From: a virus
Reading direction: 5' to 3' (one strand)
Length of the DNA: 34,964 nt
IMG/VR virus record: IMGVR_UViG_3300028548_004606
Location: 1 to 34,964 of that record
Shown here: positions 1 through 34,226 of the stretch, in pieces
How positions within the stretch are numbered: position 1 is the first letter of the stretch
How the letters are laid out: each line of letters starts with the position of its first letter
Notes under the pieces: model-generated
Told to the model about the DNA's origin: nothing
Database searches by the model: none
The model's input: the letters and a program-made list of their open reading frames with translations, nothing else
Program-made: the position numbers and the translations under genes

Positions 1-69
1 ACGGAGCTTACGCTCGTATGTAAGAATGAAGCTGCCAGCGGTCTTATTGCTGACCTAGCTGTTTCTTAA
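1..69 (+). CDS. Major capsid protein, C-terminal fragment (5' truncated)
   Basis: The first frame is open from base 1 and ends at TAA 67-69. It gives 22 residues ending EAASGLIADLAVS. This resembles the extreme C-terminus of SU10/DUF5309-type phage major capsid proteins, which commonly end in a NEAASG-type segment. The N-terminal 246 codons of such a capsid protein sit at the right edge of the window in the same phase. The two pieces are therefore probably one gene split by the choice of window ends, with some tens of residues missing between them. The piece is too short to assign without that context. A terminator follows within 30 bases, as expected after a highly expressed capsid gene. Confidence 0.7.
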   Translation, partial: TELTLVCKNEAASGLIADLAVS

Positions 70-95
70 AATAACGTAACTACGCTGTAAATTAG

Positions 96-123
96 CCTCA
101 CCCTTTCGGGGGTGGGGTTTTTT
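96..123 (+). terminator. Rho-independent terminator after capsid gene
   Basis: An 8-bp stem CCTCACCC (96-103) pairs with GGGTGGGG (110-117), with one T-G wobble and a 6-base loop. It is followed directly by six T residues (118-123). It lies 26 bases after the capsid stop and before a new strong ribosome binding site at 128-133. It probably lowers transcription into the downstream small genes and the cargo block. Confidence 0.85.
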
Positions 124-142
124 AATCGAGGAGAAAATAATT

Positions 143-244
143 ATGCCAATGGTCAAAGGTAAAAAGTACGCATACACGACAGCAGGTAAAACGGCAGCGG
201 CAAAAGCAAAAAAAACTCCCGCTAAGAAGAGAAGGAAAAAGTAA
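143..244 (+). CDS. Short lysine-rich basic peptide
   Basis: 33-residue ORF with a strong Shine-Dalgarno GAGGAG at 128-133, 9 bases before the ATG. The product starts MPMVKGKKYAY and ends in a run of Lys, Ala and Arg (about 14 Lys or Arg in 33). Small basic peptides of this kind often follow the capsid gene in phages of this type. A nucleic-acid-binding or packaging role is possible but unproven. Its TAA overlaps the next ATG (TAATG), which indicates translational coupling. It is short, but the ribosome binding site and coupling make it convincing. Confidence 0.7.
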   Translation: MPMVKGKKYAYTTAGKTAAAKAKKTPAKKRRKK

Positions 245-528
245 TGCTGATCAAAGAAAAGATTATCCCTACCGAGAAAGGGATTGAAATTCAGAAGACA
301 TTTGATAATGACGTATATATTGAAGAAGCCAAACAAATTAGAGATCAGGGGCTAGGGCAAACGGGCGAGAATCGTTTAGTCGGCAGAATACCTGTTCATC
401 TCGTCGTTCAGTGGATGAAAGAAGCTGGCTTGTCTTGGAGTGATACCGAGGCTAAAAAAGACCTAATTCGCAAGAAAATGCTATCAGGTGAGTTTGATGC
501 ATTTCGCGTGTGGAAAGGAAGCTACTGA
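244..528 (+). CDS. Conserved phage protein, unknown function
   Basis: 94 residues, starting in a TAATG overlap with the preceding basic peptide gene. The middle and C-terminal part (IPVHLVVQWMKEAG, then a Lys/Asp-rich helix and a terminal FRVWKGSY) resembles small proteins often found just after the capsid gene in podovirus-like phages. No enzymatic motif, signal peptide or membrane segment is visible. The next gene starts in a TGATG overlap, so the two are translated together. A structural or head-completion role is a guess from position only. Confidence 0.65.
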   Translation: MLIKEKIIPTEKGIEIQKTFDNDVYIEEAKQIRDQGLGQTGENRLVGRIPVHLVVQWMKEAGLSWSDTEAKKDLIRKKMLSGEFDAFRVWKGSY

Positions 529-701
529 TGGCAACTAACAAGGAATCGTTAATGATCCACGAAAAAGAGTGTGCGCTGCGGTATGAGCATATCCAGACGC
601 GCTTGGAGTCAGGCAACGCAAGATTTGACAAAATAGAGCGCCTCATCTTTGGCGTCTACCCGTTTATTTTAGCGGCGGTAGCCATCGGCAAGTGGCTGTA
701 G
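528..701 (+). CDS. Small membrane protein, holin-like
   Basis: 57 residues from ATG 528, which overlaps the previous stop (TGATG). Shine-Dalgarno AAGGA at 515-519 supports this start over an upstream in-frame codon at 510. A hydrophilic, helix-forming N-terminal half (HEKECALRYEHIQTRLE) is followed by one C-terminal membrane segment (FGVYPFILAAVAIGKWL). This layout resembles XhlA-type or other small phage lysis membrane proteins. With the adjacent 710-1060 gene, which has the opposite topology, it may form a holin/antiholin-like pair. The function is inferred. Confidence 0.55.
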   Translation: MATNKESLMIHEKECALRYEHIQTRLESGNARFDKIERLIFGVYPFILAAVAIGKWL

Positions 702-709
702 AGTAACTT

Positions 710-1060
710 ATGGATAGTGTCGTTAAGCTGATTAATGAGGTGGGCTTTCCTATCGCTGCCGCTTTGGGCTTAGGTTTATTTATTTGGAAACTTATTAATC
801 GTATTATTGATGGCTTAGAGACAAAGGTAGATACGTTAGATGACAAGCTAGTTGAGCAGATAAGTAACCTGGAACAGCGGTTGGGTGGAAAATTAGACGG
901 ACAGCATGGAATACTGATTGCTTTAATAGATCGAGTACGCTCTGTCGATAATGAAATCATACGCCAAGACGTATTGCTCAAGACCGTATTAGGTGTACCA
1001 CAATTGTTACAAACTGATCGAATTGCAAAGGCAGACAGAGATGACCAGCGAAAGGACTAA
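710..1060 (+). CDS. Membrane-anchored coiled-coil phage protein
   Basis: 116 residues. The N-terminus holds one membrane segment (about residues 11-28, GFPIAAALGLGLFIWKLI). A long charged, probably coiled-coil region follows (KVDTLDDKLVEQISNLEQRL), with a basic tail. Similar small proteins occur near lysis genes in marine phages, where no function is established. Its 3' end overlaps csgF by 20 bases, so csgF is likely translated after it. It could belong to the lysis cluster (membrane spacer or holin partner) or mark the upstream edge of the inserted cargo block. Confidence 0.55.
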   Translation: MDSVVKLINEVGFPIAAALGLGLFIWKLINRIIDGLETKVDTLDDKLVEQISNLEQRLGGKLDGQHGILIALIDRVRSVDNEIIRQDVLLKTVLGVPQLLQTDRIAKADRDDQRKD

Positions 1061-1493
1061 GATTATCGCAAGCACATTGCTTTGGATAACAATACCAATC
1101 ACTGCCGATCAGATGACCCATAAGTTTAAATCACCTTCCTTCAACGGACAAAATACCTCGTCGCACTGGTTAACCATAGAAAACCAAGAATTTAGCCGAA
1201 AAAGCGACATAGCTGATGAAATAAAAGCGTACCAGGATGAACTGGCAAGGGACCAGGAAAATACTACCCTGGCCCGGTTTATCCGCAATCTTGAATCTCG
1301 GATCTACGCGGAGCTATCGAGGCAGCTAGTCAATAACCTGTTCGGTGAAACTATGTCTACCGAAGGGATATTGGAACTAGAGGGCAACACTATCCAATAC
1401 TTTGTGGATGGCGATTTCATAACTTTGATAATAACGGATGCCGATGGCAATGAAACTACCATTACACTTCCTGTCGGTTCTTTTAGTTTCTAG
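1041..1493 (+). CDS. csgF: Curli assembly protein CsgF
   Basis: 150 residues from ATG 1041, chosen because it gives a signal peptide (hydrophobic core IIASTLLWITIPITA, likely cleavage after Ala22). The mature N-terminus (MTHKFKSPSFNGQN, residues 25-38) matches the CsgF signature known from E. coli (MTFQFRNPNFGGNP). In E. coli this peptide inserts into the CsgG pore and forms its second constriction. The C-terminal beta-rich part (FITLIITDADGNETTITLPVGSFSF) also fits the family. In curli systems CsgF is exported and couples secretion to nucleation at the cell surface. It overlaps csgG downstream. An insertion rich in charged helix residues (about 50-95) separates the two conserved ends. Confidence 0.88.
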   Translation: MTSERTKIIASTLLWITIPITADQMTHKFKSPSFNGQNTSSHWLTIENQEFSRKSDIADEIKAYQDELARDQENTTLARFIRNLESRIYAELSRQLVNNLFGETMSTEGILELEGNTIQYFVDGDFITLIITDADGNETTITLPVGSFSF

Positions 1494-2265
1494 CTGTTCA
1501 ATTGTTGACCAGTTTGATGATACCTTTGAGCAAAGATTTAAAGCTAACGATGTGTCAAAGATTACCGATCTGCAAACTACGGCTCTAATCAACGCTAAAC
1601 CTCCAGCCGTACAGCCAGTAGTCGCTGTATATCCGTCCTCCTTTACAGATCAGACAGGGCAGCGCAAAAGCAATAGCTCATTCGCTCTATTCTCAACAGC
1701 CGTTACACAGCAACCTAGCGCCCTCCTTATACGCGCCTTAAAACACGCAAGCGGAGGCAAATTCTTTCGAGTAGTGGAAAGGGTGGGCTTAGATAACCTT
1801 ACAAAAGAAAGGCAGTTAATACGATCAGCGCGTGAGCAGTTATCCCCGGGTGGTGAGACTAACAAAGTACCACCACTGTTGTTTGCTGGTGTCTTGTTTG
1901 AGGGTGCAGTTCTATCGTATGAGTCAAATCTTAAAACTGGAGGAATAGGCGCACGGTGGCTAGGTATTGGTAAGAGCGCACAGTACAGAAAAGACAACAT
2001 CACAGTCAGCTTGCGAATGGTATCAGTAGCCACTGGCGAGATACTGTCTGAGGTTATGTCGCAGAAAACAGTTTACTCCTATGCTCAGTCGGAGGATGTC
2101 TTTCGTTTCATTGAAATGGGAACGGAATTAATTGAGATTGAGGCAGGGAATTCATCTAACGAGAGCAGCACAATCGCTCTGATGAAAGCCATCGAGCAAG
2201 CTGTATTGGAGTTAATGAACATTGGTTTTACAAGAGGGTTTTGGGCTTATGAAAAAGATGAATAA
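1450..2265 (+). CDS. csgG: Curli secretion channel lipoprotein CsgG
   Basis: 271 residues from ATG 1450; in-frame ATGs at 1438 and 1444 are alternatives. A lipoprotein signal ends in LLVSSC, making Cys16 the lipidated residue. Conserved CsgG blocks follow: PVVAVYPSSFTDQTGQ, FSTAVTQQPSALLIRAL, a membrane-hairpin region with YESNLKTGGIGARWLGIG, VSLRMVSVATGEILSEV, and IEQAVLELMNIGFTRGFW. These align well with E. coli CsgG, a nonameric outer-membrane pore that exports curlin subunits. Length is near the family norm (277 in E. coli). The pore-lining loop differs from E. coli: the conserved Phe is kept (Phe81), but the preceding Asn position is Leu80. The gene overlaps csgF and the next gene, so the three are co-translated. 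Confidence 0.93.
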   Translation: MKLPLHFLSVLLVSSCSIVDQFDDTFEQRFKANDVSKITDLQTTALINAKPPAVQPVVAVYPSSFTDQTGQRKSNSSFALFSTAVTQQPSALLIRALKHASGGKFFRVVERVGLDNLTKERQLIRSAREQLSPGGETNKVPPLLFAGVLFEGAVLSYESNLKTGGIGARWLGIGKSAQYRKDNITVSLRMVSVATGEILSEVMSQKTVYSYAQSEDVFRFIEMGTELIEIEAGNSSNESSTIALMKAIEQAVLELMNIGFTRGFWAYEKDE

Positions 2266-2974
2266 AGTATTATTATCCTTGTCACTTTTAAGCACTGCGG
2301 TGCTGGCTGCCGACAATGAAATATACATTTCCCAGGCAGGGGCTACGGCCTCGATAGACGTCGAGCAGTTAGGTATCAGTAACTTAATTGGCGGTCTTAG
2401 CTCATCGGCTGGAAGTCTAACGGCATTTGATTTGGATGGCGCATCAATGACCTTAGACATAAATATGATAGGCGCAACCAACAAGTTCTTTGGTGATATT
2501 TGGGCAGATAGCTTTACTGGTAACTACAACTTCACTGGTTCAACTAACCTGTTTACGATCCAAGTAGACCCCACAAATACCTATGGTGCTGACTCTAGTA
2601 ACCATCAAGTCGCGGTGACAGGCGCATCTAACACAATGACTCTTAATCAAGGGACTTCAGCACTAGCGGCTACCTTAGATTTAGATTGGATAATACAAGG
2701 CTCTAACAACACGATCACCTCAAATATAAATATTGATGGCGCGACAAACTTTATGGATATAGACGGCAGTGATAACACTGTGACCTACACAGGAGCAGGC
2801 GTTACTGCATCGGCAGGAGGTTACTTCTACCTCGACCACACTGGCGGATCGAGGACATTCAATGTACAGCAGCTTTCAACCCAAGATAATGACTGGCTCA
2901 AGATTACCTCTGTTGGTTCTTCTGGTACTGTTTGTGTCATTCAAAACGATCAAGGCTCAAGCCTCGGCTGCTGA
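2249..2974 (+). CDS. Secreted curlin-repeat-like protein (candidate CsgG substrate)
   Basis: 241 residues. ATG 2249 gives a clean Sec signal peptide (KKMNKVLLSLSLLSTAVLA, cleavage about residue 20). The mature protein starts with a curlin-like unit, YISQAGATASIDVEQLGISN, matching the Q-x-G-x-x-N pattern of CsgA/CsgB repeats. Looser units follow with Gly-Ala-Ser/Thr-Asn turns (GATNKF, GASNTM, GSNNTI, GATNFM, GSDNTV), consistent with a stacked beta-solenoid rich in Asn, Thr and Gly. Cys229 and Cys241 lie in the last 13 residues, unusual for a curlin. It overlaps csgG by 17 bases. The likely role is the amyloid or surface-fibre subunit exported by CsgG. Identity as csgA or csgB cannot be decided. 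Confidence 0.75.
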   Translation: MKKMNKVLLSLSLLSTAVLAADNEIYISQAGATASIDVEQLGISNLIGGLSSSAGSLTAFDLDGASMTLDINMIGATNKFFGDIWADSFTGNYNFTGSTNLFTIQVDPTNTYGADSSNHQVAVTGASNTMTLNQGTSALAATLDLDWIIQGSNNTITSNINIDGATNFMDIDGSDNTVTYTGAGVTASAGGYFYLDHTGGSRTFNVQQLSTQDNDWLKITSVGSSGTVCVIQNDQGSSLGC

Positions 2975-3998
2975 TATTGGGGGAGTCTCTGAGGTTTCTG
3001 GATACGCTCAAATTAAGCGAGGGACATCGGCTAACAATGCAGACTTAGCGTTCTCAATCCAAAGCAATGATCAAGCTGTTACTAGCAACGGCAGAATGGC
3101 GATAACCTTTCTTGATGACTCAACGGTGAAGCTAACAGAGCATAGCCAGCTTACGATAGACGAATACATTTTTGATCCAGACCCCAGCAAGTCAAAGATG
3201 GCGCTGACGTTTGGTCTTGGCACAGCAAGGTTTATTAGTGGCACGTTAGGCAAGATAGATAAACGCAACATCGCACTAAAAACTCCAACTGCTGATATCG
3301 CTATTCGTGGGACAGACTTCACTGCAACAGTGGATGAGTTAGGCCGCAGTCTCATCATCCTATTGCCAGATCAATACGGTGTGTCGAGTGGTGAGATTGA
3401 GGTAATCACAGCAATGGGTGCTGTCTTGCTCAACAAACCGTATGAGGCCACAACAGTCTCAGTGTTTGAATCTGCACCAAGCAAGCCTGTCATCTTAGAC
3501 CTTACGCTTGATTTCATTGACAACATGCTAATCGTTACACCCCCAAAAAAAGAAACGGTAATAACGGAAGAACGCACAACCAAGGTGGCAAACATACTAG
3601 ACTTTAACGGACTAGATATTGACTATTTAGAGCAGGATTTTCTGTCTGATGATAGCCTTGAATTTACCGAGCTGGACATAAATTTCTTAGACGTCAATTA
3701 TCTGGAGGACTTACTTAACATTCTAGATGCACTAGCGATAAACGAGGAGGAGGATAAATTAAAACAAGTCTCAGGTGTCACGATAGCCGGGACAACCTTG
3801 GGCGCTGATGCCGAAACCCAGATCACTACTCTAATTACAGGTCAAACAATCAGCCTAATGAGAAACGTGAGCGAATATACAAGGCTCGATTTAGACATTG
3901 CTGGGGGGTATACCGTGATCCTGATTCAAGACGGAATTTCAAATAAAATTAAGATTAATGGTGGTGACTCAACCATTAGGATATTGCAGGAAGGATAA
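2889..3998 (+). CDS. Secreted FecR-domain protein with curlin-like C-terminus
   Basis: 369 residues from ATG 2889, chosen because it places a signal peptide first (SRLPLLVLLVLFVSFKTIKA); an ATG at 2862 is in frame upstream. A FecR domain spans about 35-150: SGYAQIKRG, FLDDSTVKLTEHSQLTIDEY and the hallmark TPTADIAIRGTDFTATVD. Two related acidic segments follow (LDIDYLEQDFL and LDINFLDVNYLEDLL, about 242-277). The last 30 residues hold ILIQDGISNKIKINGGDS, echoing the QLGISN unit of the preceding curlin-like protein. FecR domains of this type often occur with CHASE2 cyclases as envelope sensors or anchors. The gene overlaps the curlin-like gene by 86 bases and the cyclase start (TAATG). Confidence 0.82.
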   Translation: MTGSRLPLLVLLVLFVSFKTIKAQASAADIGGVSEVSGYAQIKRGTSANNADLAFSIQSNDQAVTSNGRMAITFLDDSTVKLTEHSQLTIDEYIFDPDPSKSKMALTFGLGTARFISGTLGKIDKRNIALKTPTADIAIRGTDFTATVDELGRSLIILLPDQYGVSSGEIEVITAMGAVLLNKPYEATTVSVFESAPSKPVILDLTLDFIDNMLIVTPPKKETVITEERTTKVANILDFNGLDIDYLEQDFLSDDSLEFTELDINFLDVNYLEDLLNILDALAINEEEDKLKQVSGVTIAGTTLGADAETQITTLITGQTISLMRNVSEYTRLDLDIAGGYTVILIQDGISNKIKINGGDSTIRILQEG

Positions 3999-5776
3999 TG
4001 AAAAAGACGATTATAGGGGCTGTTGTTGCGCTGTTGTTTTCTCTTTTAATCTATCAGCCCACCTTGCTTGAGGTTATAAAGCTAAGAACCTTTGATGCTT
4101 TGGTGCAGACTCAAGAGCCTACTGGCAATCTGGTAGTGCTGAATCTGACAGAGGATAATATTCACCAGGAAGGCGGTTGGCCTTTCCCTCGTCAAAGACT
4201 CGCTGAGATTCATGTTGATCTATTGAATGCCGGGGCAGCCTCAGTATCTTGGGTTGCAGTCTTTAGTGAGCCAGATCGGTTCGGGGGTGATGCGGCTTTT
4301 GCGGAGGCTCTCTCTTATAACACTAGTGTCATCGCCATGTTTGAGACTGATGGATTTAAAGACACACCCAAGACCGAAGGAACGGTTATTCTTGGTGATG
4401 ATGTGGGCGGTATACGGGCTCAAGGCGTTACGCAGAACATAAAGCCATTAAGAGATGTAGCCCTTCAAGGGATAGTCTCAGCCCCGGTGGACGTTGATAA
4501 TCTTGTTAGACGTATGCCTTTGTTAATGCGGTCTAATGATGGATGGATTGCCAGTTTCGGCATGCAGCTACTCAAAGCTGTTACAGGGACAAGCACTTAC
4601 GTTATTAAAACTAACGCTAATGGCATTCAAGAGGTACGCGTCAAGCAGCTAAACCCTATTCCAACAGACACTAATGGCAGAGTTTGGGTCAATTGGATAC
4701 AAACAGACACCACTTCCCTTAATAAAATGGATGTTGCGGGAAAGATGGTTATTGTCGGCACGACAGCCAAAGGAATACTACCTCAAATCGCAACGCCTAT
4801 CGGGTTGGTATATCCGCATCAGATTCAAGCATCGCTCTTAGAAACGATATTACACGCGTCTAACAAGCCGATGCCGATGATACCGCAGAGCGCTTTACTG
4901 TACGAGATATTGATCTTTACTGTTGGTGTGGTGCTGGTATTTTTGTTTATTAACTATCTTGGTGTCTATCTTGGCCTAGCGTTATCGGCGGGCTCAATCA
5001 CAGCAATGGGTGCGTTTGGATTTTACCTCATACAACGTGGAATTCTAATCGACGTAACCTGGGCAATGATCTCTCAGTTCGTGGTCGCAGCAGCCACGTT
5101 CTATCTTAATTACAAAGAGCAATACAAGCTAAGACAGTTAATCAAAAAGCAGTTTGAACACTATTTAGACCCTCGCCAGGTTAAACGGTTACAGGACAAC
5201 CCCAGCCTCTTAAAGCTGGGAGGTGAGAAGCGATACTGCACGTTCTTGTTTACTGATGTTCGTGGCTTTACCGCCTTGTCCGAAAGGGTAAGCCCGGAAG
5301 AGGTTGCTTATATAATGAATCGAGCCTTGACCGCACAGCAATCCGCAGTCGCTGAGTGTCACGGCATGGTCGATAAGTACATTGGCGATGCAATGATGGC
5401 AATATTTGGTGCGCCTTTAGCCTTGGAAAATCACGAAGATTGGGCTATCAAATGCGCCAAGCAGATTCAAATCAACATGGAAGAACTGAACAAAGAGTTT
5501 ACGGCGAAAGGATTACCACCGATCCAGATAGGGATAGGCATTAATAGCGGTGATGCGATCATTGGCAACATGGGCAGCGACCAGAGGTTTGACTATACGG
5601 CCATAGGTGATGCCGTCAATATTGCTGCCCGGTTAGAATCTGGGACGAAAGCAGCAGAGGTTGATGTGTTAATAGGGATCAGCACGAAGCAACGCTCTGG
5701 CAGTAGCTTGAAAGAATTGCCTCCGATTGAGGCAAAAGGTAAGGCTGAAAAGCTGCTTGTTTATACACTAGCGTGA
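3998..5776 (+). CDS. CHASE2-domain class III adenylate/guanylate cyclase
   Basis: 592 residues. One N-terminal membrane segment (about 3-21), a periplasmic CHASE2 sensor domain (about 25-290, with FDALVQ, GGWPFPRQRLAEI and the GKMVIVGTTAKG block), and three membrane segments (about 302-319, 322-345, 352-371). A cytoplasmic cyclase domain (410-592) follows. Catalytic residues of class III cyclases are present: metal-binding Asp420 (FTDVRGF) and Asp464 (VDKYIGDAMMAIFGAP), Lys460, the DYT motif at 532-534, and transition-state Asn541 and Arg545 (NIAARLE). It should make cAMP, or possibly cGMP, in response to an envelope signal. It starts in a TAATG overlap with the FecR gene, so sensor partner and enzyme are made together. 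A full-length membrane cyclase is very unusual phage cargo. Confidence 0.93.
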   Translation: MKKTIIGAVVALLFSLLIYQPTLLEVIKLRTFDALVQTQEPTGNLVVLNLTEDNIHQEGGWPFPRQRLAEIHVDLLNAGAASVSWVAVFSEPDRFGGDAAFAEALSYNTSVIAMFETDGFKDTPKTEGTVILGDDVGGIRAQGVTQNIKPLRDVALQGIVSAPVDVDNLVRRMPLLMRSNDGWIASFGMQLLKAVTGTSTYVIKTNANGIQEVRVKQLNPIPTDTNGRVWVNWIQTDTTSLNKMDVAGKMVIVGTTAKGILPQIATPIGLVYPHQIQASLLETILHASNKPMPMIPQSALLYEILIFTVGVVLVFLFINYLGVYLGLALSAGSITAMGAFGFYLIQRGILIDVTWAMISQFVVAAATFYLNYKEQYKLRQLIKKQFEHYLDPRQVKRLQDNPSLLKLGGEKRYCTFLFTDVRGFTALSERVSPEEVAYIMNRALTAQQSAVAECHGMVDKYIGDAMMAIFGAPLALENHEDWAIKCAKQIQINMEELNKEFTAKGLPPIQIGIGINSGDAIIGNMGSDQRFDYTAIGDAVNIAARLESGTKAAEVDVLIGISTKQRSGSSLKELPPIEAKGKAEKLLVYTLA

Positions 5777-5786
5777 GGTAAAATTT

Positions 5787-6170
5787 ATGATAGGAGCAAT
5801 AGTTAATGGAATTACAAATCTTGGCAGCACCTACTTAAAGAATAAAGGGGCTGAAAAGCAAGCTATCCATGAAAGCAAGATGACCCAAATTAGCGGTGAT
5901 GTTGATTGGGAATCTAAGATGGCAGCAGCCTCTGGGGACTCGTGGAAAGACGAATATCTAATTATTTTATTAACGTCCCCCGTTATTGCAATTATGTATG
6001 GCGCAGTTACCAATAACCCTGAAATTATAGCTCGCGTGGAGTATGGCTTTACGGTTCTCAATAGTCTTCCTGAGTGGTTCAGCTATCTGCTAGGCGTCGG
6101 TGTAACTGCATCATTTGGAGTCAAAGGCGCAGGTCAATTTATGAAACTTAAAAACAAGCTAGGTAAATAA
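5787..6170 (+). CDS. Holin, 3-transmembrane type
   Basis: 127 residues. The N-terminal part is hydrophilic and amphipathic. It is followed by hydrophobic segments YLIILLTSPVIAIMYGAV, a second region around GFTVLNSLPEWFSYLLGVGV, and a C-terminal Gly-rich stretch with a basic tail. The SWKDEYLIILLTSP block resembles the 3TM holin family described for gene transfer agents and many phages (GTA_holin_3TM). Its TAA overlaps the ATG of the endolysin gene (TAATG), giving the usual holin-endolysin pair. It would form membrane lesions to time lysis. Confidence 0.8.
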   Translation: MIGAIVNGITNLGSTYLKNKGAEKQAIHESKMTQISGDVDWESKMAAASGDSWKDEYLIILLTSPVIAIMYGAVTNNPEIIARVEYGFTVLNSLPEWFSYLLGVGVTASFGVKGAGQFMKLKNKLGK

Positions 6171-6529
6171 TGCAAAAGTATAAGTATTTTAAGATAGAAG
6201 ATTTTAACTGTCAGGAAACGGGCGAAAACGAAATGGACATCGAGTTTATAAAAGGACTAGATAATCTTAGAGCCGCTTGCGGATTTCCGTTTGTGATTAC
6301 CTCTGGATTCAGAAGTAAAGAACATAGTATAGAGGCCGCTAAAGTTGCAGCCGGCAAAAAATTAGGCACTCACGCGCAAGGAATTGCATCTGACATTCGA
6401 GTATCTGGAGGAAGCCAACGAGCAAAGATAGTAAAACACGCATCAGCAATGGGTATGTCAGTAGGTGTTGCGAAAACATTTGTACACGTTGATACACGAA
6501 AGACAGAGCAGATGTGTTGGTGTTACTAA
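6170..6529 (+). CDS. Endolysin, M15-family peptidase
   Basis: 119 residues with the M15_3 layout: ITSGFRSKEHS (residues 43-53), then THAQGIASDIRV, which supplies His68 and Asp75, and FVHVDTR, which supplies His106. These three residues are the expected zinc ligands, and Asp108 is also conserved. Such enzymes are L,D/D,D-endopeptidases that cut peptidoglycan cross-links. No signal peptide is seen, so release depends on the holin. The C-terminal MCWCY with two Cys is unusual. This is the last gene before the attachment site, and it converges with the integrase gene. Confidence 0.88.
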   Translation: MQKYKYFKIEDFNCQETGENEMDIEFIKGLDNLRAACGFPFVITSGFRSKEHSIEAAKVAAGKKLGTHAQGIASDIRVSGGSQRAKIVKHASAMGMSVGVAKTFVHVDTRKTEQMCWCY

Positions 6530-6558
6530 TCTCATAGATCGAGGTGGCTATGTGATTT

Positions 6559-6589
6559 TAGTGGGCAATCTGCATTATAGTGGGCAATC
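6559..6589 (+). repeat. Paired TAGTGGGCAATC repeats, putative integrase arm sites
   Basis: TAGTGGGCAATC occurs at 6559-6570 and again at 6578-6589, two exact copies spaced 19 bases start to start. An inverted copy of the first 11 bases is at 6721-6731 and a one-mismatch copy at 6786-6796, on the other side of the tRNA-like core. Short repeats flanking a core on both sides are the known layout of arm-type integrase sites in attP. The assignment is inferred from arrangement. Confidence 0.6.
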
Positions 6590-6623
6590 GTGTTTTTGCT
6601 AAATCGCTACAGCCCAGTGAGAA

Positions 6624-6673
6624 TGGTGCACCCGGAGGGATTCGAACCCCCGACCAAGTGGTTCGAAGCCACC
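6624..6673 (-). other. attP core: 3' half of a tRNA-Arg(UCG) gene
   Basis: Read on the minus strand, this is the 3' half of a tRNA. It has a 5-bp anticodon stem (GGTGG/CCACT, one G-T) with loop CTTCGAA, giving anticodon TCG, then a 5-base variable loop TGGTC, a T stem GGGGG/CCCTC with loop TTCGAAT, acceptor strand CGGGTGC, discriminator A and encoded CCA (6624-6626). The matching 5' acceptor strand GCACCCG and a D arm are absent upstream. It is therefore not a complete tRNA but the segment that would restore a host tRNA-Arg after integration. The integrase gene begins next to it. Confidence 0.85.
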
Positions 6674-6720
6674 CGCTAATAGTGAATTAAACTTATATTA
6701 ATCAATGACTTACTAAAATA

Positions 6721-6796
6721 ATTGCCCACTATGATGTGTTAGTGAATAGGCTTGAAGCGCACGAACTGCGCGGCCTTGTTTTAAATAGCGGGCAAT
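6721..6796. repeat. Right-side arm-type repeats of attP
   Basis: ATTGCCCACTA (6721-6731) is the reverse complement of the left-side repeat. TAGCGGGCAAT (6786-6796) is a direct copy with one mismatch that reaches the integrase stop codon. Between them lies a small inverted repeat GCGC (6757-6760 and 6768-6771) with no convincing T-run. No gene is visible in this interval. Confidence 0.5.
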
Positions 6797-7953
6797 TATT
6801 TAAGGTTAAATGGTATGACTGTTTCGGGTTTTCTACGATAGACCCGGTTGGTTATAGCAGTGCTGTGATGTTGCAATAGTTTGGCAGCGTGTTCGGCACT
6901 ATCAACATCTGATGCGGTCTTAGCTCTAAGGTCGCGCTCTTGAAATCTCTCTGATAATTCTGTTCCATCCATCGCCTTATCCATACTTCTACGCCACTGG
7001 GAATCGAAGTTCGATGTTTCGCCTTTCTCATTGATCATCGGCTGTCCTGTACTCGATGCAAATAGATAGAATGATTGAACCTTTAGCCATTTGGTTCGCC
7101 ACTTTATAACGTCATTAATTATTTCCTTCAATCCAGTCGATTGACCCTCGTAAACAAACGGCAGGAATGACGCTTTACCTCCTTTCTTCCCGGCAGTTTT
7201 CTGTCTCTTTGGAAAATTCAAACCATCTGGTGTGATGTCGTTCATCTTAACTCTAAGCAACATAGATTTATCTTTACCTGTTGCCATCTTTAATGGGGTG
7301 TACACTCGTATGAACGCATTGCACGCATCCATGAAATAACCTAACTCGTCATCTGTGACATAGCGATCACGATCATCAATTTGGATTTTGCCCACAATTC
7401 TTTTGGATGGGTGGTGAATCTTGCACCCCCATTCAATAGCTTTAGCAAACAGGTGAGATATAACCTCGATGTCTAGGTTGGCTTGCTTTGCGCTTTTGTG
7501 GTGATGGATGTAATCTCTATACTGAAATACCTGATGCGATTCAAAGTCTACCACTGGCTGATCTAAATCAAAGACAGCCGTCAACCTACTCATTGATTGC
7601 AAATTGCTCTTCTGTGTTTGCCATGCTTTCTTTGGGATAACTTCTAGCTGATACCTGATGAACAAAGCCCCTAGTGTATAAGGCTTGTCTGATGTTGAAA
7701 TTTTAGATGCCCACACTGTAAAAGCGTTTTTCTCTGCTTCCGCTAGGCTCTTACCCTCACCCAATTTAATCTCTGCTTTATTGCTCCACAGATGCTTGGC
7801 CGATGGGGGCGGCTTAAACCAGATCACATATTTGGCGTTAATACCTCTCTTCCTTAATCGCCAACCAGAAGGGTATTTTTTGTTGCCTGTAATGATCCGT
7901 TGTCTAGCCAAGGGCTGCAAAATCCATCTTATATTCTTTTGGTTTTGGCTCAT
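6796..7953 (-). CDS. int: Tyrosine-type phage integrase
   Basis: 385 residues from ATG at 7953 (an in-frame ATG at 7977 is possible but overlaps the upstream gene more). The layout is an N-terminal DNA-binding part, a SAM-like core-binding region (about 90-185, ending FAKAIEWGC) and a C-terminal catalytic domain. Active-site features are RDLRAKTASD (340-349), LLQHHS with His362, and nucleophile Tyr372 in NRVYRRK. Two positions look non-canonical: the box I Arg position in TGKDKS is Asp228, and the first residue of HxxR is Arg340. It lies directly beside attP and should catalyse integration into tRNA-Arg. It is the last gene of the leftward operon. Confidence 0.9.
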   Translation of the reverse strand: MSQNQKNIRWILQPLARQRIITGNKKYPSGWRLRKRGINAKYVIWFKPPPSAKHLWSNKAEIKLGEGKSLAEAEKNAFTVWASKISTSDKPYTLGALFIRYQLEVIPKKAWQTQKSNLQSMSRLTAVFDLDQPVVDFESHQVFQYRDYIHHHKSAKQANLDIEVISHLFAKAIEWGCKIHHPSKRIVGKIQIDDRDRYVTDDELGYFMDACNAFIRVYTPLKMATGKDKSMLLRVKMNDITPDGLNFPKRQKTAGKKGGKASFLPFVYEGQSTGLKEIINDVIKWRTKWLKVQSFYLFASSTGQPMINEKGETSNFDSQWRRSMDKAMDGTELSERFQERDLRAKTASDVDSAEHAAKLLQHHSTAITNRVYRRKPETVIPFNLK

Positions 7954-8104
7954 GAAATTGCTCAACTGGAACAACAAAAGAGCCGTCTGGTCTAATCCTA
8001 TAACTATAGCCCATAAAATCCAAGACCTTTAATTGTTTAGATCGGCTCTTTGCCCCTGTCAATTCTTGAACATCGTTAGCTGACAACCAGAACTTAACTA
8101 GCAT
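7904..8104 (-). CDS. Small DUF4224-like protein upstream of integrase
   Basis: 66 residues from ATG 8104. The sequence FWLSANDVQELTGAKSRSKQ followed by LDFMGYSYRIRPDGSFVVP fits the DUF4224 pattern (short proteins with LTG, R.KQ and RPDG motifs). These are regularly encoded just before phage integrases and are suspected of directing recombination (excisionase-like). Its 3' end overlaps the integrase start by about 50 bases, and its start overlaps the upstream HTH gene stop by 11 bases. The excision role is inferred from position. Confidence 0.75.
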   Translation of the reverse strand: MLVKFWLSANDVQELTGAKSRSKQLKVLDFMGYSYRIRPDGSFVVPVEQFHEPKPKEYKMDFAALG

Positions 8105-8303
8105 AATGCCACTCTGCAATCGTTACTTTGTCACCATAGCGATTCAGAACTTGTCTGCGCTTAGTCTCAATCGGATGCCCCATTGCTCGCAGCTCACTGA
8201 CTCTTGCTGGCGCTTCTAATATGCCTAAATCGTCCCACGAGTTTAGTCGAGTTAACGGTCGGCCTGATTTCAAGTGGTCTAGTATTCTTTGTGCTTGTGT
8301 CAT
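8094..8303 (-). CDS. Small helix-turn-helix protein (HTH_39-like)
   Basis: 69 residues from ATG 8303, with AGAGG 5 bases upstream; a GTG at 8309 is an alternative. The sequence QRILDHLKSGRPLTRLNSWD, then LEAPARVSELRAMGHPIETK, matches the winged-helix pattern of short phage proteins in which ARxxELRxxGHPI forms the recognition part. It probably binds DNA in excision or early control. It is followed by the DUF4224-like gene with an 11-base overlap. Confidence 0.7.
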   Translation of the reverse strand: MTQAQRILDHLKSGRPLTRLNSWDDLGILEAPARVSELRAMGHPIETKRRQVLNRYGDKVTIAEWHYAS

Positions 8304-8400
8304 AATCACCTCTTAATGTGTAAAAAATATCTAAAATAGTCGCCGTTAAAAACAGCGTTATGAAAATTCCCGCAATTAACTGCTCTAAAATTTCTATCAT
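8194..8400 (-). CDS. Possible small single-pass membrane protein
   Basis: 68-residue ORF with a Shine-Dalgarno-like GAGG 10 bases before ATG 8400. Residues about 7-28 (QLIAGIFITLFLTATILDIF) form a membrane segment. The rest is hydrophilic. More than half of it lies in another frame of the HTH gene on the same strand, so the C-terminal part may be fortuitous. No family is recognised. Without it the interval 8304-8460 would hold no gene. Confidence 0.35.
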   Translation of the reverse strand: MIEILEQLIAGIFITLFLTATILDIFYTLRGDYDTSTKNTRPLEIRPTVNSTKLVGRFRHIRSASKSQ

Positions 8401-8460
8401 AATTTAGACCTCAGATAAGATGCCCCGTTGTGGACGGTGGGGCTGACCGTAAGGGGTCGT

Positions 8461-8736
8461 TCAGAAAGGGATATCTGAATCCGCATACTGTTCTTTAGGA
8501 ATCGGTGCTATCGCTTGCTGCACCTGTTGCATCCCATTGTTGTGCGCCACTTCCTTCTTATTAAAGCTAGTCTTCATATACTTGGTGCCGGATTTAGAAG
8601 TGTTAATCCAGGCGCTAAACCAGTATTCAGTTCCGTCAATCATTGCATTCCCTTTGTAATCTGGATGCTGGTCAGACTCCTTTTTATCGTTTTTAAACAG
8701 CACACCGCTGTCGTCTTTCTGTTCATATTCGCTCAT
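8461..8736 (-). CDS. Phage protein with SSB-like acidic C-terminal tip
   Basis: 91 residues, with strong AAAGGAG 8 bases before the ATG. The core GVLFKNDKKESDQHPDYKG followed by GTEYWFSAWINTSK resembles small phage single-strand-binding or DUF736-like proteins with one OB-like sheet. The protein ends DSDIPF, the same type of acidic, Phe-terminal tip that bacterial SSB uses to recruit repair proteins. A single-strand DNA-binding role in replication or recombination is inferred. It starts in an ATGA overlap with the upstream gene. Confidence 0.65.
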   Translation of the reverse strand: MSEYEQKDDSGVLFKNDKKESDQHPDYKGNAMIDGTEYWFSAWINTSKSGTKYMKTSFNKKEVAHNNGMQQVQQAIAPIPKEQYADSDIPF

Positions 8737-8969
8737 GCTACTTTCTCCTTTAAGATGTCCGATTCAAATAAATCCCAGTCAAATTTCAAAGGCTTAAAGC
8801 CGTTTAGACTTGATAGGCTTTCGATATTGTCCAATTCAGCTTGGTGCGTTTGTTTCATTGCTACCATTGCTCCGCGTTTTTCCGCTATCTGAATTTTAAG
8901 CGCAACAATTTCAGCACTAATTTTGTCTTGATAAACCTTCATTTCCTCTATCGTCTTCACTTCTTTCAT
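8733..8969 (-). CDS. Small coiled-coil protein, unknown function
   Basis: 78 residues, with AAGGGGA upstream of the ATG, the ribosome binding pattern shared by several genes of this leftward operon. Residues about 5-50 are charged and heptad-like (YQDKISAEIVALKIQIAEKR), predicting a coiled coil. The C-terminal part is aromatic and acidic (FKPLKFDWDLFESDI). The stop overlaps the next start (ATGA). Position between two recombination-type genes suggests an accessory role, but no homologue is recognised. Confidence 0.65.
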   Translation of the reverse strand: MKEVKTIEEMKVYQDKISAEIVALKIQIAEKRGAMVAMKQTHQAELDNIESLSSLNGFKPLKFDWDLFESDILKEKVA

Positions 8970-8989
8970 GGTCTTTCCCCTTGGTTAAA

Positions 8990-10459: not shown

Positions 10460-10810
10460 CTATGATTTGCGTTTTAGCAGTAATTTCAAAACTTCAGTCG
10501 CTTGCTGAAGATCAGCGCTATTCAGACGCGCCACTTGTTGCATTAGAGCGAACAGTTCTGCCTGAGATTCACTGAGAGTCTCTGTTACCGCGCTATCTGG
10601 CGAATCTACGCCTAATAAATATGCGGGGGTGGTTTCTAATACCCTGGCAAGAATGACCGCTTGCGGCACCTTTAAATCGCGTATTCCTGATTCATAATTA
10701 GCAATTCTTGAGGTAGATAGCTCACCGCCCGTTTTCGCGGATAGGGTAGCTAGTGACCATCCGAAGATGCCACGCGCAGCCTTTATTCTCATATTCTTTT
10801 TTGCAGTCAT
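10460..10810 (-). CDS. Phage repressor, XRE-type helix-turn-helix
   Basis: 116 residues. An HTH_XRE domain spans about 6-66: KAARGIFGWSLATLSAKTGG, then recognition helix region STSRIANYESGIRDLKVPQA and VILARVLETTPAYLLG. The remaining 50 residues are helical. There is no S24-type autocleavage domain, so relief of repression would need an antirepressor or another signal rather than RecA-assisted self-cleavage. A promoter with a perfect TATAAT and a palindromic operator lies just upstream, indicating autoregulation. It is divergent from the Cro-like gene, the normal arrangement for an immunity region. Confidence 0.88.
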   Translation of the reverse strand: MTAKKNMRIKAARGIFGWSLATLSAKTGGELSTSRIANYESGIRDLKVPQAVILARVLETTPAYLLGVDSPDSAVTETLSESQAELFALMQQVARLNSADLQQATEVLKLLLKRKS

Positions 10811-10974: not shown

Positions 10975-11184
10975 ATGAAAAACACTAAAAATCGATTTCA
11001 AAACTATCTCTCTTATCTTGGCGATCTAAAAGCGTCTGAAAGTTTAGCAATTTCTGAGCGCGCTGCTCAAGCCTATCGCCTGGGGGAAAGACGGCCTCGA
11101 CCCCGCGACATTGAGAAGATTATGCGCGCAGCAAACGGCTCCCTGAGTTACGCCTGTTTTTTCGAGCCTGTCGTCCATGAATAA
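10975..11184 (+). CDS. Cro-like DNA-binding protein
   Basis: 69 residues from ATG 10975 (a TTG at 10966 is less likely). A small helical protein containing LAISERAAQAYRLGERRPRP, then RDIEKIMRAANGSLSY. This reads as a Cro/YdaS-like helix-turn-helix in which ERAAQAYRLGERRP is the turn and recognition helix. It lies divergently from the repressor with a palindromic operator directly before it. It is followed by the replication gene with an 8-base overlap. There is no clear Shine-Dalgarno sequence. It probably represses the repressor promoter to favour lytic growth. Confidence 0.7.
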   Translation: MKNTKNRFQNYLSYLGDLKASESLAISERAAQAYRLGERRPRPRDIEKIMRAANGSLSYACFFEPVVHE

Positions 11185-11974
11185 AATATTGGTCGCTCCC
11201 CTAGAGGCTCTTACTGATACTCGATTGACAGATCAACAGCGTAGGGTGTTGCTTACTCTTTTTAGTTTTCGAGGAAAAGTAAGCGATACAGTGTGGCCTG
11301 GAAGAGAGTTAATTGGTCAACGCGCTAATATTAAAGATTTGGGTAGAGTTGGAAAATGTACGACTGCTCTGCGCGAACTGGGCTGGCTTGTAAAATGGAA
11401 AACAGGTGGTTCCGGCCATAATACTTATCGTCTGACGTTTCCTGATGCCCTAAACAGTGCTTTAACCGCTGAAGAGGTGCATTTAGAGTCATGTTTAGCA
11501 TTGGAGGCAGAATCCGCCCCTAACGATGAATCTTCATTCGGGGCAGAATCCGCCCCCCATTCGGGGCAGAATACGCCTCCTGATACGGGGCAGAATTTGC
11601 CCACTGCATTAAACAAACCAGTAGAACAAACCAATCAACAAACCATATATAAAAAAATCTATCTTGATTTAAATGATCCTTTGATCGACTTGTACAAGGA
11701 ATTTATTGATCACCGTATTCAGAAAAAGGATTCGTTAACTCAGTATAAATTTACGTTGTATCTAAAATCTGTGCGGCGATGTGTTGACGAATTAAATGTC
11801 ACGCCGGAGTTTGTGATTGAGAAAACCATTGAAGCGGGGTGGAAGTCTGTCGAACCGTCTTGGTTGTCCAACAGGAACCCTAAAGTCAACGTCAGTGACA
11901 GCTTGCGAAAACAAAGTATTTCAGATGCGTTAACGGATCGGTCTTGGGCTGCTGGGTTGGTGCTAGATGGATGA
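11177..11974 (+). CDS. Phage replication initiator (O-like, winged helix)
   Basis: 265 residues. The N-terminal 90 form a winged-helix domain (TDQQRRVLLTLFSFRGK, VWPGRELIGQRANI, CTTALRELGWLVKW, HNTYRLTFP) like lambda O or HTH_36 proteins. The middle (about 110-145) is a repetitive segment (AESAP, GAESAP, GQNTPP, GQNLP) encoded by four iterons. The C-terminal domain is helical, with WKSVEPSWLSNRN near the end, a pattern seen in DnaD/O-type replication proteins that load helicase. It should bind the iterons in its own gene to start replication. No helicase or helicase loader gene is found next to it, so host DnaB may be recruited directly. Confidence 0.75.
   Translation: MNKILVAPLEALTDTRLTDQQRRVLLTLFSFRGKVSDTVWPGRELIGQRANIKDLGRVGKCTTALRELGWLVKWKTGGSGHNTYRLTFPDALNSALTAEEVHLESCLALEAESAPNDESSFGAESAPHSGQNTPPDTGQNLPTALNKPVEQTNQQTIYKKIYLDLNDPLIDLYKEFIDHRIQKKDSLTQYKFTLYLKSVRRCVDELNVTPEFVIEKTIEAGWKSVEPSWLSNRNPKVNVSDSLRKQSISDALTDRSWAAGLVLDG
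11503..11604 (+). repeat. Four iterons inside the replication gene, candidate origin
   Basis: A repeat with consensus GGGGCAGAATNCGCC occurs at 11503, 11540, 11563 and 11587 (spacings 37, 23 and 24 bases). Copy 1 has GGAGGCAG, and copy 4 has TTGCCC. The 22-24 base spacing of the last three puts them on the same DNA face. Iterons within an O-like gene define the origin in lambdoid phages, and the same organisation is inferred here. The AT-rich stretch after 11634 could be the unwinding region. Confidence 0.7.
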
Positions 11975-30856: not shown

Positions 30857-30886
30857 ACTAAAGATGTAACCCAAACTTATCCCTTA

Positions 30887-30904
30887 ACCGCCTTTGTTGG
30901 CGGT
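30887..30904 (+). terminator. Hairpin before portal gene (weak terminator)
   Basis: A perfect 6-bp stem ACCGCC (30887-30892) pairs with GGCGGT (30899-30904), loop TTTGTT. It is followed by CTTTCTCGT, only a broken T-run. It may attenuate transcription or protect the mRNA end between ejection and head genes. Confidence 0.5.
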
Positions 30905-30923
30905 CTTTCTCGTGGAAAAACAT

Positions 30924-33005
30924 ATGGAACTTAAAAAACTGACCGACGATGACATCAAGCAAATTGCTTCAGACGCGGTAGACAATGCGGAAGACTTTGT
31001 TAATTCAGAGATCGTCGATAATCGACTCAAGGCGCAACGCTACTATGATGGTCATGTAGACATCGGTGAAGAGGATGGTCGATCAAAGGTTGTGGCCACC
31101 AAGATTAGGGACAAGATACGCGCTATTAAGCCAAGTCTTATGCGGGTGTTTTTATCCACAGACAAGCCTGTTGAGTTTGCTCCAATGGGGCCAGAGGACG
31201 CTCAGTTCAGTGAGCAAGCGACAAAATACGTTAACTATAAGTTCAATCAACTCGGTGGTTACCGAATTCTACAGGAAGCGTTTAGCGACTCGCTGCTTAA
31301 AAAATGCGGTGTTGTGAAGTGCTATTGGGATGTAGAAAAGAAGAGCGAGACCTATGACCACCAAGACCTACCTGATGAGCAGTTTAGTCTCATTGTCAAT
31401 GATCCGCGAGTAGAGGTTATTGAACACTCAGAGAACATCGAGATCGATATTGACGAGATGGGTATGGAGCAACAGCGCTCTAGCCATGATGTAAAGATAT
31501 CGGTCACCGAAGAGTACGGCGATCTTGTTATCGACACCCTGCCGCCAGAAGAGTTCTTTGTCTCCTCTGATGCCACCTCTATTGAGGATGCCTATTGTGT
31601 GGCCCATAAGCGTGATATGCGGGTAGGTGACCTGGTGGCGATGGGATATGACTTTGACGTTGTCTCTGAACTGTCTAGCGTGGAGACCGATAACTTTGCT
31701 GATGAAGAGCGTTTTGAAAGACAGAACTTTAGCTTTGGCAACGAAGAGCAGCCCCTTGATCCGTCGATGAAAAAGGTCGCGGTTTCTGAGGTCTACATGA
31801 AGATTGATGTGGACGGCACTGGTGTCCCGGTCATGCACAAGATTCTGCTCGGTGGTGGCTCTGATGAACTGCTTGATTATGAGCCTTGGGGTGACCTTCC
31901 CTTTGCCATGTTTCAGCATGATCCAGAGGCGCACACCTGGGTAGGAAATTCATTAGCTGACATCCTATTCTCAGAGCAAGACGCTTCAACTGCAATGCTT
32001 AGAGGCGTGTTAGATAACGTCGCACTGACCAACAACCCTCGGACTGAAATCGTCGAGGGTCAGGTCAATGTTGATGACTTCTTAAATAACGAGATTGGCG
32101 GTGTAGTTAGGACCAAGCAGAGTGGTGCCATTAATCCTTTGACGGTTCCCTTTGTTGCGGGTCAGACGCTAATAGCGGTTGAGTATTTAGATACGCAGAT
32201 CGATCATAAGACTGGCGTATCCGCAGCCTCTTCAGGTTTAGACGCTAACGCCTTGACTGGGACAACGGCCACGGCTGTTAACGCCACTATCCAAGGCGCA
32301 GCCACACAGATTGAGGTGATGGCAAGAAACTTAGCCGAGGGTGGTGTGACTCAACTGTTCAAGTTGATGCTCAAGCTGACCATTGAGAACTGCGATAAGG
32401 TCGAGATGATGGCCATTTCAGGCGGCGATTATATGCCGGTTGATCCACGCTCTTGGAATAAAGAGATGGACGTTACGGTCAATGTGGGTCTGGGTACGGG
32501 CAAAGAGGGTGAGCGCTTAATGGCGCTTCAGCAAGCCCTGGACATGCAGGTGCAAATCTTTACCAATTACGGTGTCGGTAATGGCCTGGTCGGTATGACG
32601 GAGATCAGGAACACACTCGCCGATATGTTGGCGCTGGGTGGCCTACGCAACATTGATCGTTACTTTAAGCCGATGACTGTAGAACAAGAGATGCAGATGC
32701 AGTCACAAAGCCAGCAGGGTGAGCAGCCAATGGATCAGTCAACCGCCTATCTTCAGGCAGAGCAATTAAAGGCCCAAGCCAAATCTCAGAGTGACATGGC
32801 CCGAATTCAGATAGACGCACAGAAAGCAGTAGCAAAGGACGATCGAGAGCGTGATCAGATGGACCAAGACCTGTTAGTAAAAGCGGCTGAGATATACGGC
32901 AAGTATCAAACCAACGTGGATGTCGCAGGGGTGAAGCAAGCCCAAGCAGTCCCACGTTACCCACAAGAATCACCAGCCCAGGCGGTAACAGGCGGTAGAT
33001 TTTGA
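30924..33005 (+). CDS. Portal protein, P22-like
   Basis: 693 residues from ATG 30924; a GTG at 30912 and an in-frame start at 30894 are less likely. Features of P22-type portals: ERFERQNFSF, SVTEEYGDLVIDTLPPEEFF with a TSIEDAYCVAHK block, PFAMFQHDPEAHTWVGNSLA (wing), and ALTGTTATAVNATIQGAATQ before the stem/crown helices. The C-terminus is Gln-rich and helical (QMQSQSQQGEQPMDQ), fitting a barrel. It forms the dodecameric DNA channel. The length matches P22 gp1 (725). Confidence 0.87.
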   Translation: MELKKLTDDDIKQIASDAVDNAEDFVNSEIVDNRLKAQRYYDGHVDIGEEDGRSKVVATKIRDKIRAIKPSLMRVFLSTDKPVEFAPMGPEDAQFSEQATKYVNYKFNQLGGYRILQEAFSDSLLKKCGVVKCYWDVEKKSETYDHQDLPDEQFSLIVNDPRVEVIEHSENIEIDIDEMGMEQQRSSHDVKISVTEEYGDLVIDTLPPEEFFVSSDATSIEDAYCVAHKRDMRVGDLVAMGYDFDVVSELSSVETDNFADEERFERQNFSFGNEEQPLDPSMKKVAVSEVYMKIDVDGTGVPVMHKILLGGGSDELLDYEPWGDLPFAMFQHDPEAHTWVGNSLADILFSEQDASTAMLRGVLDNVALTNNPRTEIVEGQVNVDDFLNNEIGGVVRTKQSGAINPLTVPFVAGQTLIAVEYLDTQIDHKTGVSAASSGLDANALTGTTATAVNATIQGAATQIEVMARNLAEGGVTQLFKLMLKLTIENCDKVEMMAISGGDYMPVDPRSWNKEMDVTVNVGLGTGKEGERLMALQQALDMQVQIFTNYGVGNGLVGMTEIRNTLADMLALGGLRNIDRYFKPMTVEQEMQMQSQSQQGEQPMDQSTAYLQAEQLKAQAKSQSDMARIQIDAQKAVAKDDRERDQMDQDLLVKAAEIYGKYQTNVDVAGVKQAQAVPRYPQESPAQAVTGGRF

Positions 33006-33247
33006 GTGTAAGAGAAAAGGCTCAACGATACGCCCGCCTCGCGGGTGATGATGTATTTATTGAGCTTTTACAGGATGTCAGGGATGGCGCTGTTAGCGTC
33101 TTTCTGGAGCAGTCTCGTGACGATGAGGCGATTAACCGAGCGCGGAATTTAATTGATGCGCTCAACACTTTAGAGACCACAATCAACGCAGTTAAACTGA
33201 ACGATTTGGTTGAAAATAAAAGGAAACAGTACCGTGGAAACGACTGA
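33002..33247 (+). CDS. Small helical protein between portal and scaffold
   Basis: 81 residues. No ATG is available at the 5' end; TTG 33002, overlapping the portal stop by four bases, is the best start. It is fully helical (REKAQRYARLAGDDVFIELL, INRARNLIDALNTLETTINA). Similar small genes lie between portal and scaffold genes in marine podoviruses. The function is unknown; a head assembly factor is possible. It overlaps the scaffold gene by 14 bases. Confidence 0.6.
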   Translation: MSVREKAQRYARLAGDDVFIELLQDVRDGAVSVFLEQSRDDEAINRARNLIDALNTLETTINAVKLNDLVENKRKQYRGND

Positions 33248-34205
33248 AGCAATAATGGATGGCAGCATTGAATCTGCCGCAGAAGCGATCTTAGAGCAAC
33301 CCAAAACAGAGGAAGCGGAGGTTGAGGAGGAGGTTGAAAATACCGAACCTGAGACTGAAGAGCCCGACGAGGAGGAGCCTGAATCGCAGGATGAAAATGA
33401 AGACGAAGAAGAAGACGATATTAGTGAGGACGACGAAGACGAAGACGATGCCGTTCCTGAGAGTCAGACTTTCACTGTCAAAATAGACGGTGAAGAAAAG
33501 GCTGTAACTCTCGACGAACTCAAGCAAGGTTTCTCCGGTCAGAAGTTTGTTCAGAAAGGTATGCAGGAGAACGCTCAAGCGCGAAAGCAGACTGAGGATG
33601 TTTATAACGCATTACTGGAATCTCGTCAGCAAGTGACAGACCTTTTTCAGAAATTGCAAAACGGAGGCGCTGCTCGCCAGCCTATTAAGCCAGACCTAGC
33701 CATGTTAGACACCGATCCAATCGGATACGTCGAAGCTAATGCCCGGTTTGAGCATGATATGCAAGCCTATCAAGGTGAGATGCAGCAATATCAACAGGTC
33801 GCTCAAGACCAGCTACACGCCCAAAATATAGCCCTAGAAGCCCATCGAAACCAAGAGATGTCTAAGCTCTTAGAGATCATGCCTGACTTGAAAGACCCCA
33901 CCAAGGGGAAGGTAATGAAGGAGCAGATGCTTGCGGTCGGTAACGAGTACGGTTATTCGCCGGACGAGATATCAACGATTGTGGATCACCGGGCTATCCG
34001 AGTTTTGGAGGATGCTAGAAAGTATCGAGAAATTGTAGCAGGTAAAAGCAAGGCCGTTGAAAAGGCGACTCACAAAAAGAGAACGCAGCCGTTAAAAGCA
34101 GGGTCTAAAAAAGTAAAGTTAGGCGCTAAAGAAATTCGGAATAAGCAAAATAGACTGAAAAACTCAGGCTCAATTGATGACGCGGTCGCGTTAATCTTGG
34201 GCTAA
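33234..34205 (+). CDS. Capsid scaffolding protein
   Basis: 323 residues from GTG 33234, preceded by AAAGGA at 33218-33223. The N-terminal 75 residues are extremely acidic (long Glu/Asp runs). A short beta segment (QTFTVKIDGEEKAVTLDELK) follows, then a long helical, Gln-rich coiled region (ARFEHDMQAYQGEMQQYQQV), and a basic C-terminus (HKKRTQPLKAGSKKVKLGAK) that would contact the capsid protein. This composition and the place directly before the capsid gene are classical for scaffolds. Confidence 0.85.
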   Translation: METTEAIMDGSIESAAEAILEQPKTEEAEVEEEVENTEPETEEPDEEEPESQDENEDEEEDDISEDDEDEDDAVPESQTFTVKIDGEEKAVTLDELKQGFSGQKFVQKGMQENAQARKQTEDVYNALLESRQQVTDLFQKLQNGGAARQPIKPDLAMLDTDPIGYVEANARFEHDMQAYQGEMQQYQQVAQDQLHAQNIALEAHRNQEMSKLLEIMPDLKDPTKGKVMKEQMLAVGNEYGYSPDEISTIVDHRAIRVLEDARKYREIVAGKSKAVEKATHKKRTQPLKAGSKKVKLGAKEIRNKQNRLKNSGSIDDAVALILG

Positions 34206-34226
34206 ACCTTTATTGAGGAAATTATC

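Follow-up and report, generated by a model that had tools for sequence, protein, structure and literature searches.

This locus raises the question of whether a half tRNA gene that adjoins an integrase gene and is flanked by short repeats is the site through which a marine virus joins the chromosome of its host, and which host that would be. The window, by which we mean the whole stretch of DNA analysed, is an IMG/VR virus record of 34,964 bases. We consider it highly probable (roughly 0.9) that the locus is a lambda-type attP of a temperate phage whose integrase inserts into the tRNA-Arg(UCG) gene of bacteria of the SAR92 clade (Porticoccaceae). The elements of the site are as follows.

6559 to 6569, plus strand: arm-type site P'2, TAGTGGGCAAT, at an offset of +54/55 from the core that is kept in relatives
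6578 to 6588, plus strand: arm-type site P'1, TAGTGGGCAAT, at an offset of +35/36, kept in relatives
6603 to 6623, minus strand: conserved block TTCTCACTGGGCTGTAGCGAT, directly after the CCA, at the start of the P' arm
6624 to 6673, minus strand: attP core of 50 bp, the 3' half of tRNA-Arg(UCG), reading GGTGGCTTCGAACCACTTGGTCGGGGGTTCGAATCCCTCCGGGTGCACCA in the minus-strand sense
6700 to 6712, plus strand: IHF consensus site AATCAATGACTTA, an exact match to WATCAANNNNTTR, on the part of the P arm that separates the core from the inverted arm site
6721 to 6731, minus strand: inverted arm-type site P1, ATTGCCCACTA on the plus strand, at an offset of about -56, kept in relatives
6786 to 6796, plus strand: arm-type site P2, TAGCGGGCAAT, with one mismatch to TAGTGGGCAAT, abutting the integrase stop codon at an offset of about -124

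The core starts at the first anticodon-stem base and runs through the loop CTTCGAA (anticodon TCG), the variable loop, the T arm and the 3' strand of the acceptor to an encoded CCA, which bears out the description in an earlier note of a clean 3' tRNA half. A complete tRNA, which the note named as the finding that would speak against it, was not detected in the window by ARAGORN or Rfam. The crossover (overlap region) is likely to be the 7-nt anticodon loop, which is flanked by the inverted anticodon stem. The repeats were also recovered where that note had placed them (6559, 6578, inverted at 6721, and a near copy at 6786). At one mismatch or fewer, TAGTGGGCAAT has only four matches in the whole 35 kb, all within 238 bp around the core; shuffling gave an expectation of 0.79, and none of 100 shuffles reached four. 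The IHF consensus had been overlooked. It lies at about -39 and at the same place in relatives, being exact in most and having one mismatch in L150/L134 and L027, but since the window holds seven matches to this consensus versus 1.7 expected, the site is moderate evidence alone. The block TTCTCACTGGGCTGTAGCGAT is almost invariant in seven related viral attPs and four host scars, and its exact 17-mer CACTGGGCTGTAGCGAT occurs in the searched host genomes only beside the tRNA or within scars. In most relatives and scars the block is better conserved than the arm sites, and it may serve as a site for a core-proximal or an accessory protein. With the att region as query, blastn matched no annotated phage.

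The genes around the site are those listed here.

6170 to 6529: M15 endolysin gene, bordering the attP core on the side away from the integrase gene (int)
6796 to 7911, minus strand: tyrosine integrase gene (phrog_1 integrase, E 9e-13), with a probable start at TTG 7911 and a reading frame open to TTG 7977
7904 to 8119, minus strand: excisionase (recombination directionality factor) gene, xis, overlapping the int start (phrog_1266, E 1.3e-6; phrog_4764, E 3.2e-6)
10460 to 10810, minus strand: HTH repressor-like gene (PF01381, E 1.9e-8; phrog_8)
11177 to 11974, rightward: lambda-O-like replication gene, faced by the repressor-like gene

The integrase gene adjoins attP, its 3' end at 6796 lying about 120 bp from the core, and its overlap with xis, together with the relatives, makes 7911 rather than 7977 the probable start. 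The repressor-like gene appears to mark a temperate control region, and beyond the replication gene lie genes for a terminase, a portal and a DNA-ejection-like protein; the temperate phage is probably short-tailed. A second contig, L031, links window positions 30886-34964 to window positions 1-8987 across a 150-nt gap at >99% identity. As read from this overlap, the window is a near-complete circle in permuted form, about 35.1 kb in size; with its two ends linked in L031, it represents the free phage form with attP intact and not a prophage. On the plus strand, a gene encoding CHASE2 and adenylate/guanylate cyclase domains (3998-5776; PF05226 E 1.5e-35, PF00211 E 9.5e-21, phrog_35576 E 4e-136) lies near attP; it is possibly lysogenic cargo acting on cyclic-nucleotide signalling of the host.

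The exact 50-mer was scanned once in 84,980 species genomes, with one genome per species, and was found in 27 stretches. This result agrees with the predictions that bacterial tRNA-Arg(UCG) genes with an identical 3' half exist and that the core would lead to the host. The titles of the 27 matching records are Porticoccaceae, SAR92 clade, HTCC2207, MOLA455, or uncultured or unspecified Pseudomonadales, Cellvibrionales or Gammaproteobacteria, so that the 50-mer is restricted to SAR92/Porticoccaceae-type records if the unspecified titles are included; in this one scan of 84,980 species it was absent from any clearly different group. At least 24 of the 27 stretches belong to 112 genomes of one family, a set that was searched independently. 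ARAGORN called a complete tRNA-Arg(tcg) in 25 of the 27, all with the same 5' half, GCACCCGTAGCTCAGCTGGATAGAGTA, and the integration site named in the earlier note, a tRNA-Arg gene with anticodon UCG, therefore stands. An empty site, in which the core is followed by a strong intrinsic terminator, was present in at least 13 of the 27. When the host 5' half was joined in silico to the phage core, the resulting attL held a complete tRNA-Arg(tcg), while attP and attR held none. Because the tRNA half is exact only in SAR92-type bacteria, it indicates both the insertion site and the most likely host. A tRNA half can persist in a phage that has since moved to different hosts, and near-identical tRNAs beyond the Porticoccaceae could serve an integrase that tolerates mismatches; judging from the att matches and scars, the host is very probably of the SAR92 clade.

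Host loci L002, L009 and L020 consist of an intact tRNA followed by TTCTCACTGGGCTGTAGCGAT and arm repeats, that is, by a phage-type P' arm, and are attL-type junctions; L027 ends in a P arm and half tRNA and is an attR-type junction. No phage genes of the window type remain beyond these junctions, which we therefore call scars. Of prophages bounded by this core, for which a search had been proposed, attL- and attR-type junctions of the same phage type are present in SAR92-type genomes, and no intact copy was found. The 112 family genomes yielded scars and integrase fragments only, with three fragments related to the integrase and a single terminase relative (35%). As these genomes are fragmented MAGs, one per species, the absence of a prophage is weak evidence.

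Several further structures were seen at or near these tRNA genes. In L009/L076 (G002:C43; L076 6100-7700), an intact tRNA-Arg is followed by the P' arm, the last int bases CCATTTCAGCGT, the P arm and a degenerate core, all within about 200 bp. The entire phage is absent from this stretch, and a second P' scar lies 1.2 kb further on. We considered this structure as a mobile or non-autonomous mini-attP and set the idea aside, since a single case is insufficient and a deletion scar explains the structure. A cluster of genes that by eye resemble copper or metal-handling genes (L108, G006:C59, 15828-16905) ends in a P arm and half-tRNA core, lacks an integrase, and is possibly an island using the same att as phages of the window type; that the copper-type cluster of L027/L108 is cargo of an integrase-less element was rejected, as no second end was found. 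Two copies of tRNA-Arg(UCG) lying 10 kb apart in X_MB111 were rejected as an attL/attR pair, both being complete, with their own terminators and with ordinary-looking host genes between them. In HTCC2207 (L072, 8173-9463) an unrelated gene with DUF6538 and Phage_integrase domains follows the same tRNA-Arg(UCG) at a distance of 62 nt, indicating that a second type of element uses the site. Decayed relatives of the window integrase lie just upstream of a complete tRNA-Arg(TCG) in L078 (8376-9414) and of a complete tRNA-Lys(TTT) in L079 (5855-6182), as if these elements had supplied the 5' side of the tRNA and its promoter.

Seven related viral attPs (L149-L155, of which L149 = L032 and L150 = L134) were compared with that of the window. 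All of them keep the site offsets within 1-2 bp. Their arm motifs, together with that of the window, fall into three classes, and all four sites of a genome carry the same class.

Window class: arm motif ATTGCCCACTA
Class A (L149 = L032, L150 = L134): arm motif ATTCACCCAC[CT]A
Class B (L151-L155): arm motif [AT]TTGCCCCA

Integrase residues 32-66 are only 49-54% identical between classes A and B, compared with 88-97% in the remaining blocks (Fisher p 6e-9 and 2e-8), and are 97% identical within class A and 83-100% within class B. Divergence was counted over residues 32-66 and not from residue 1; a count from residue 1 was dropped, since 7977 is probably not the true start. An AlphaFold2 (AF2) model places these residues within or close to strands one and two (39-43 and 50-54) of a three-stranded sheet and helix. 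The window integrase resembles class B at residues 41/43/45/51/53, along with the motif 'GC', and class A at residues 37-38/54-61, along with the motif 'CAC', and across these three lineages the shared pattern suggests which residues may read which bases. The earlier reading of the repeats as arm-type is supported, on comparative grounds, by their joint change at all four positions across relatives and their co-variation with the integrase N-terminus.

In sister phages L115 (12100-13466) and L119 (11000-12390), with portals 84-87% identical, different integrases occupy the same genome position. The attP of L119 (portal identity 84%) is a tRNA-Lys(UUU) half beside an integrase different from that of the window; the 44-nt 3' end of this tRNA-Lys matches one genome of the same family without a mismatch, and 20 others with three or fewer. 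These data indicate that integrase/att cassettes are swapped.

The AF2 model of the integrase, built from a 20-sequence alignment, had a pLDDT of 71 and a pTM of 0.54. Its best PDB matches were all to lambda integrase (E 3e-11), with the alignment spanning the whole length of lambda Int. The modelled protein thus has the lambda-type fold, with predicted N-terminal beta-sheet arm-binding, core-binding and catalytic domains. An earlier model from three sequences was useless (pLDDT 34), and an alignment of eight sequences spanned too much diversity to be used for scanning contigs. The window integrase escaped Pfam at its normal threshold but was recognised through PHROGs, the sister sequences and the fold; sister sequences match PF00589 at an E value of about 4e-4, below the Pfam cut-off. 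Of the catalytic set, K260, R351, H370 and Y380 are present, while D236 occupies the Arg I position, next to K237, and R348 that of His II. Arg I is a nearly invariant residue. All seven distinct clade members aligned, the window included, carry box I as TGKDKSM (residues 235-237 region) and ERDLR for EHDLR; the alignment is gap-free at the motif, and relatives at about 34% identity carry TGxRRGD, TGxARGD or similar, lambda-type enzymes TGxR. Relative to L134, and with synonymous sites close to saturated, dN/dS was about 0.04 for residues 99-393 and 0.08 overall; the low ratio implies that the integrase is under constraint (purifying selection). We offer tentatively, as a proposal that is more doubtful than not, that the clade has a re-wired active site in which a relocated basic residue replaces Arg I (Asp236/Lys237 for Arg I, Arg348 at His II), combined with an N-terminal domain that is swapped together with all four arm sites at one attB. 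If true, the clade would contain naturally orthogonal systems for integrating into a single tRNA.

That the half tRNA is a relic, carried by a phage that is integration-defective or now lytic and no longer uses its attP, would fit the lack of an intact prophage with the core and the replacement of Arg I. It is hard to reconcile with the dN/dS of the integrase, with the preservation of the four arm sites, their spacing and the IHF site in seven relatives through concerted changes, and with the presence of xis and a repressor-like gene, and we regard it as quite unlikely. Very improbable is the view that the repeats are regulatory operators or chance matches unrelated to integration: short repeats by phage gene ends are often operators, but these number only four in 35 kb, surround the core at fixed offsets and change in concert with the integrase N-terminus.

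Another reading is that the tRNA-Arg core is in use, but that some different gammaproteobacterium sharing this tRNA 3' half serves as the main host. In its favour, the core sites that integrases recognise are short, the titles of several among the 27 records are broad, and genomes G003 and G006 are absent from the list of the family set. Against this stand the lack of an exact 50-mer in any clearly different group in the one scan, the location of scars of the window phage type in SAR92-type genomes, and the tRNA-Lys att cassette of the sister phage, which independently fits the same family. We consider such a host unlikely and retain integration into the tRNA-Arg(UCG) gene of SAR92-clade bacteria as the best explanation, weakened by the missing intact prophage and by an Arg I that is not Arg.

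From the observed anatomy of the site, the host tRNA matches, the attL- and attR-type junctions and the arm/integrase co-variation, we infer that the window phage itself lysogenises SAR92 bacteria. In the proposed mechanism, the N-terminal domain of Int would bind the four arm sites P2, P1, P'1 and P'2 while its other domains bind the anticodon stem-loop core, IHF would bend the P arm at 6700-6712, and strands would most likely be exchanged in the anticodon loop. At attL, the 50-bp core would make the tRNA whole again by joining the phage 3' half to the host 5' half, and the other half-tRNA would stay at attR, next to int, with Xis presumably controlling direction. The predicted attL is the host 5' half, the core and TTCTCACTGGGCTGTAGCGAT; the predicted attR is AATATAAGTTTAATTCACTATTAGCG, the core and the host terminator.

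This reading ties a marine virus known only from metagenomes to a named, partly cultured clade, SAR92 (e.g. HTCC2207), and makes exact junction sequences available for finding it in cells and reads. No temperate phage of SAR92 was found in the literature searched, which took in few subscription papers and excluded bioRxiv. Three arm classes on one core form a natural data set on arm-site recognition by integrases, and the unusual catalytic box lends itself to direct testing. The window attP belongs to a well-known kind, and the arm-class co-variation and the catalytic box raise its usefulness above average.

The lambda intasome, in which Int is heterobivalent, supplies the mechanism (PMC4880445). 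As in lambda, the integrase has a predicted N-terminal domain for arm binding, arm sites flank the core, an IHF site lies between core and arm, and xis adjoins int; the window site differs in that the core is a tRNA half, in having one clear IHF site versus three in lambda, and in an integrase with D/K for Arg I and Arg at the His II position. Mycobacteriophages that integrate at tRNA attB sites rebuild the tRNA with cores of 30-45 bp, whereas the window core is 50 bp and targets tRNA-Arg(UCG) of a marine gammaproteobacterial clade, and ARAGORN finds no phage-encoded tRNA in the window. The integrase of Xanthomonas phage PBR31, among the closest from annotated isolates (about 33% identity over 87%), likewise has xis just upstream of int, but phage and host are different and PBR31 keeps Arg (TGMARGD) where the window clade has Asp-Lys. 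In Cluster K1 mycobacteriophages a changed arm-site consensus accompanies N-terminal Int substitutions at the same core (PMC3203893), and the principle that arms and Int change together is therefore already known from a smaller published case. The present phages resemble Cluster K1 in combining one core with differing arm motifs that track the Int N-terminus (PMC3203893), and they differ from it in having three arm classes, an N-terminal difference that is much greater (roughly half of 35 residues), and unrelated phages and host.
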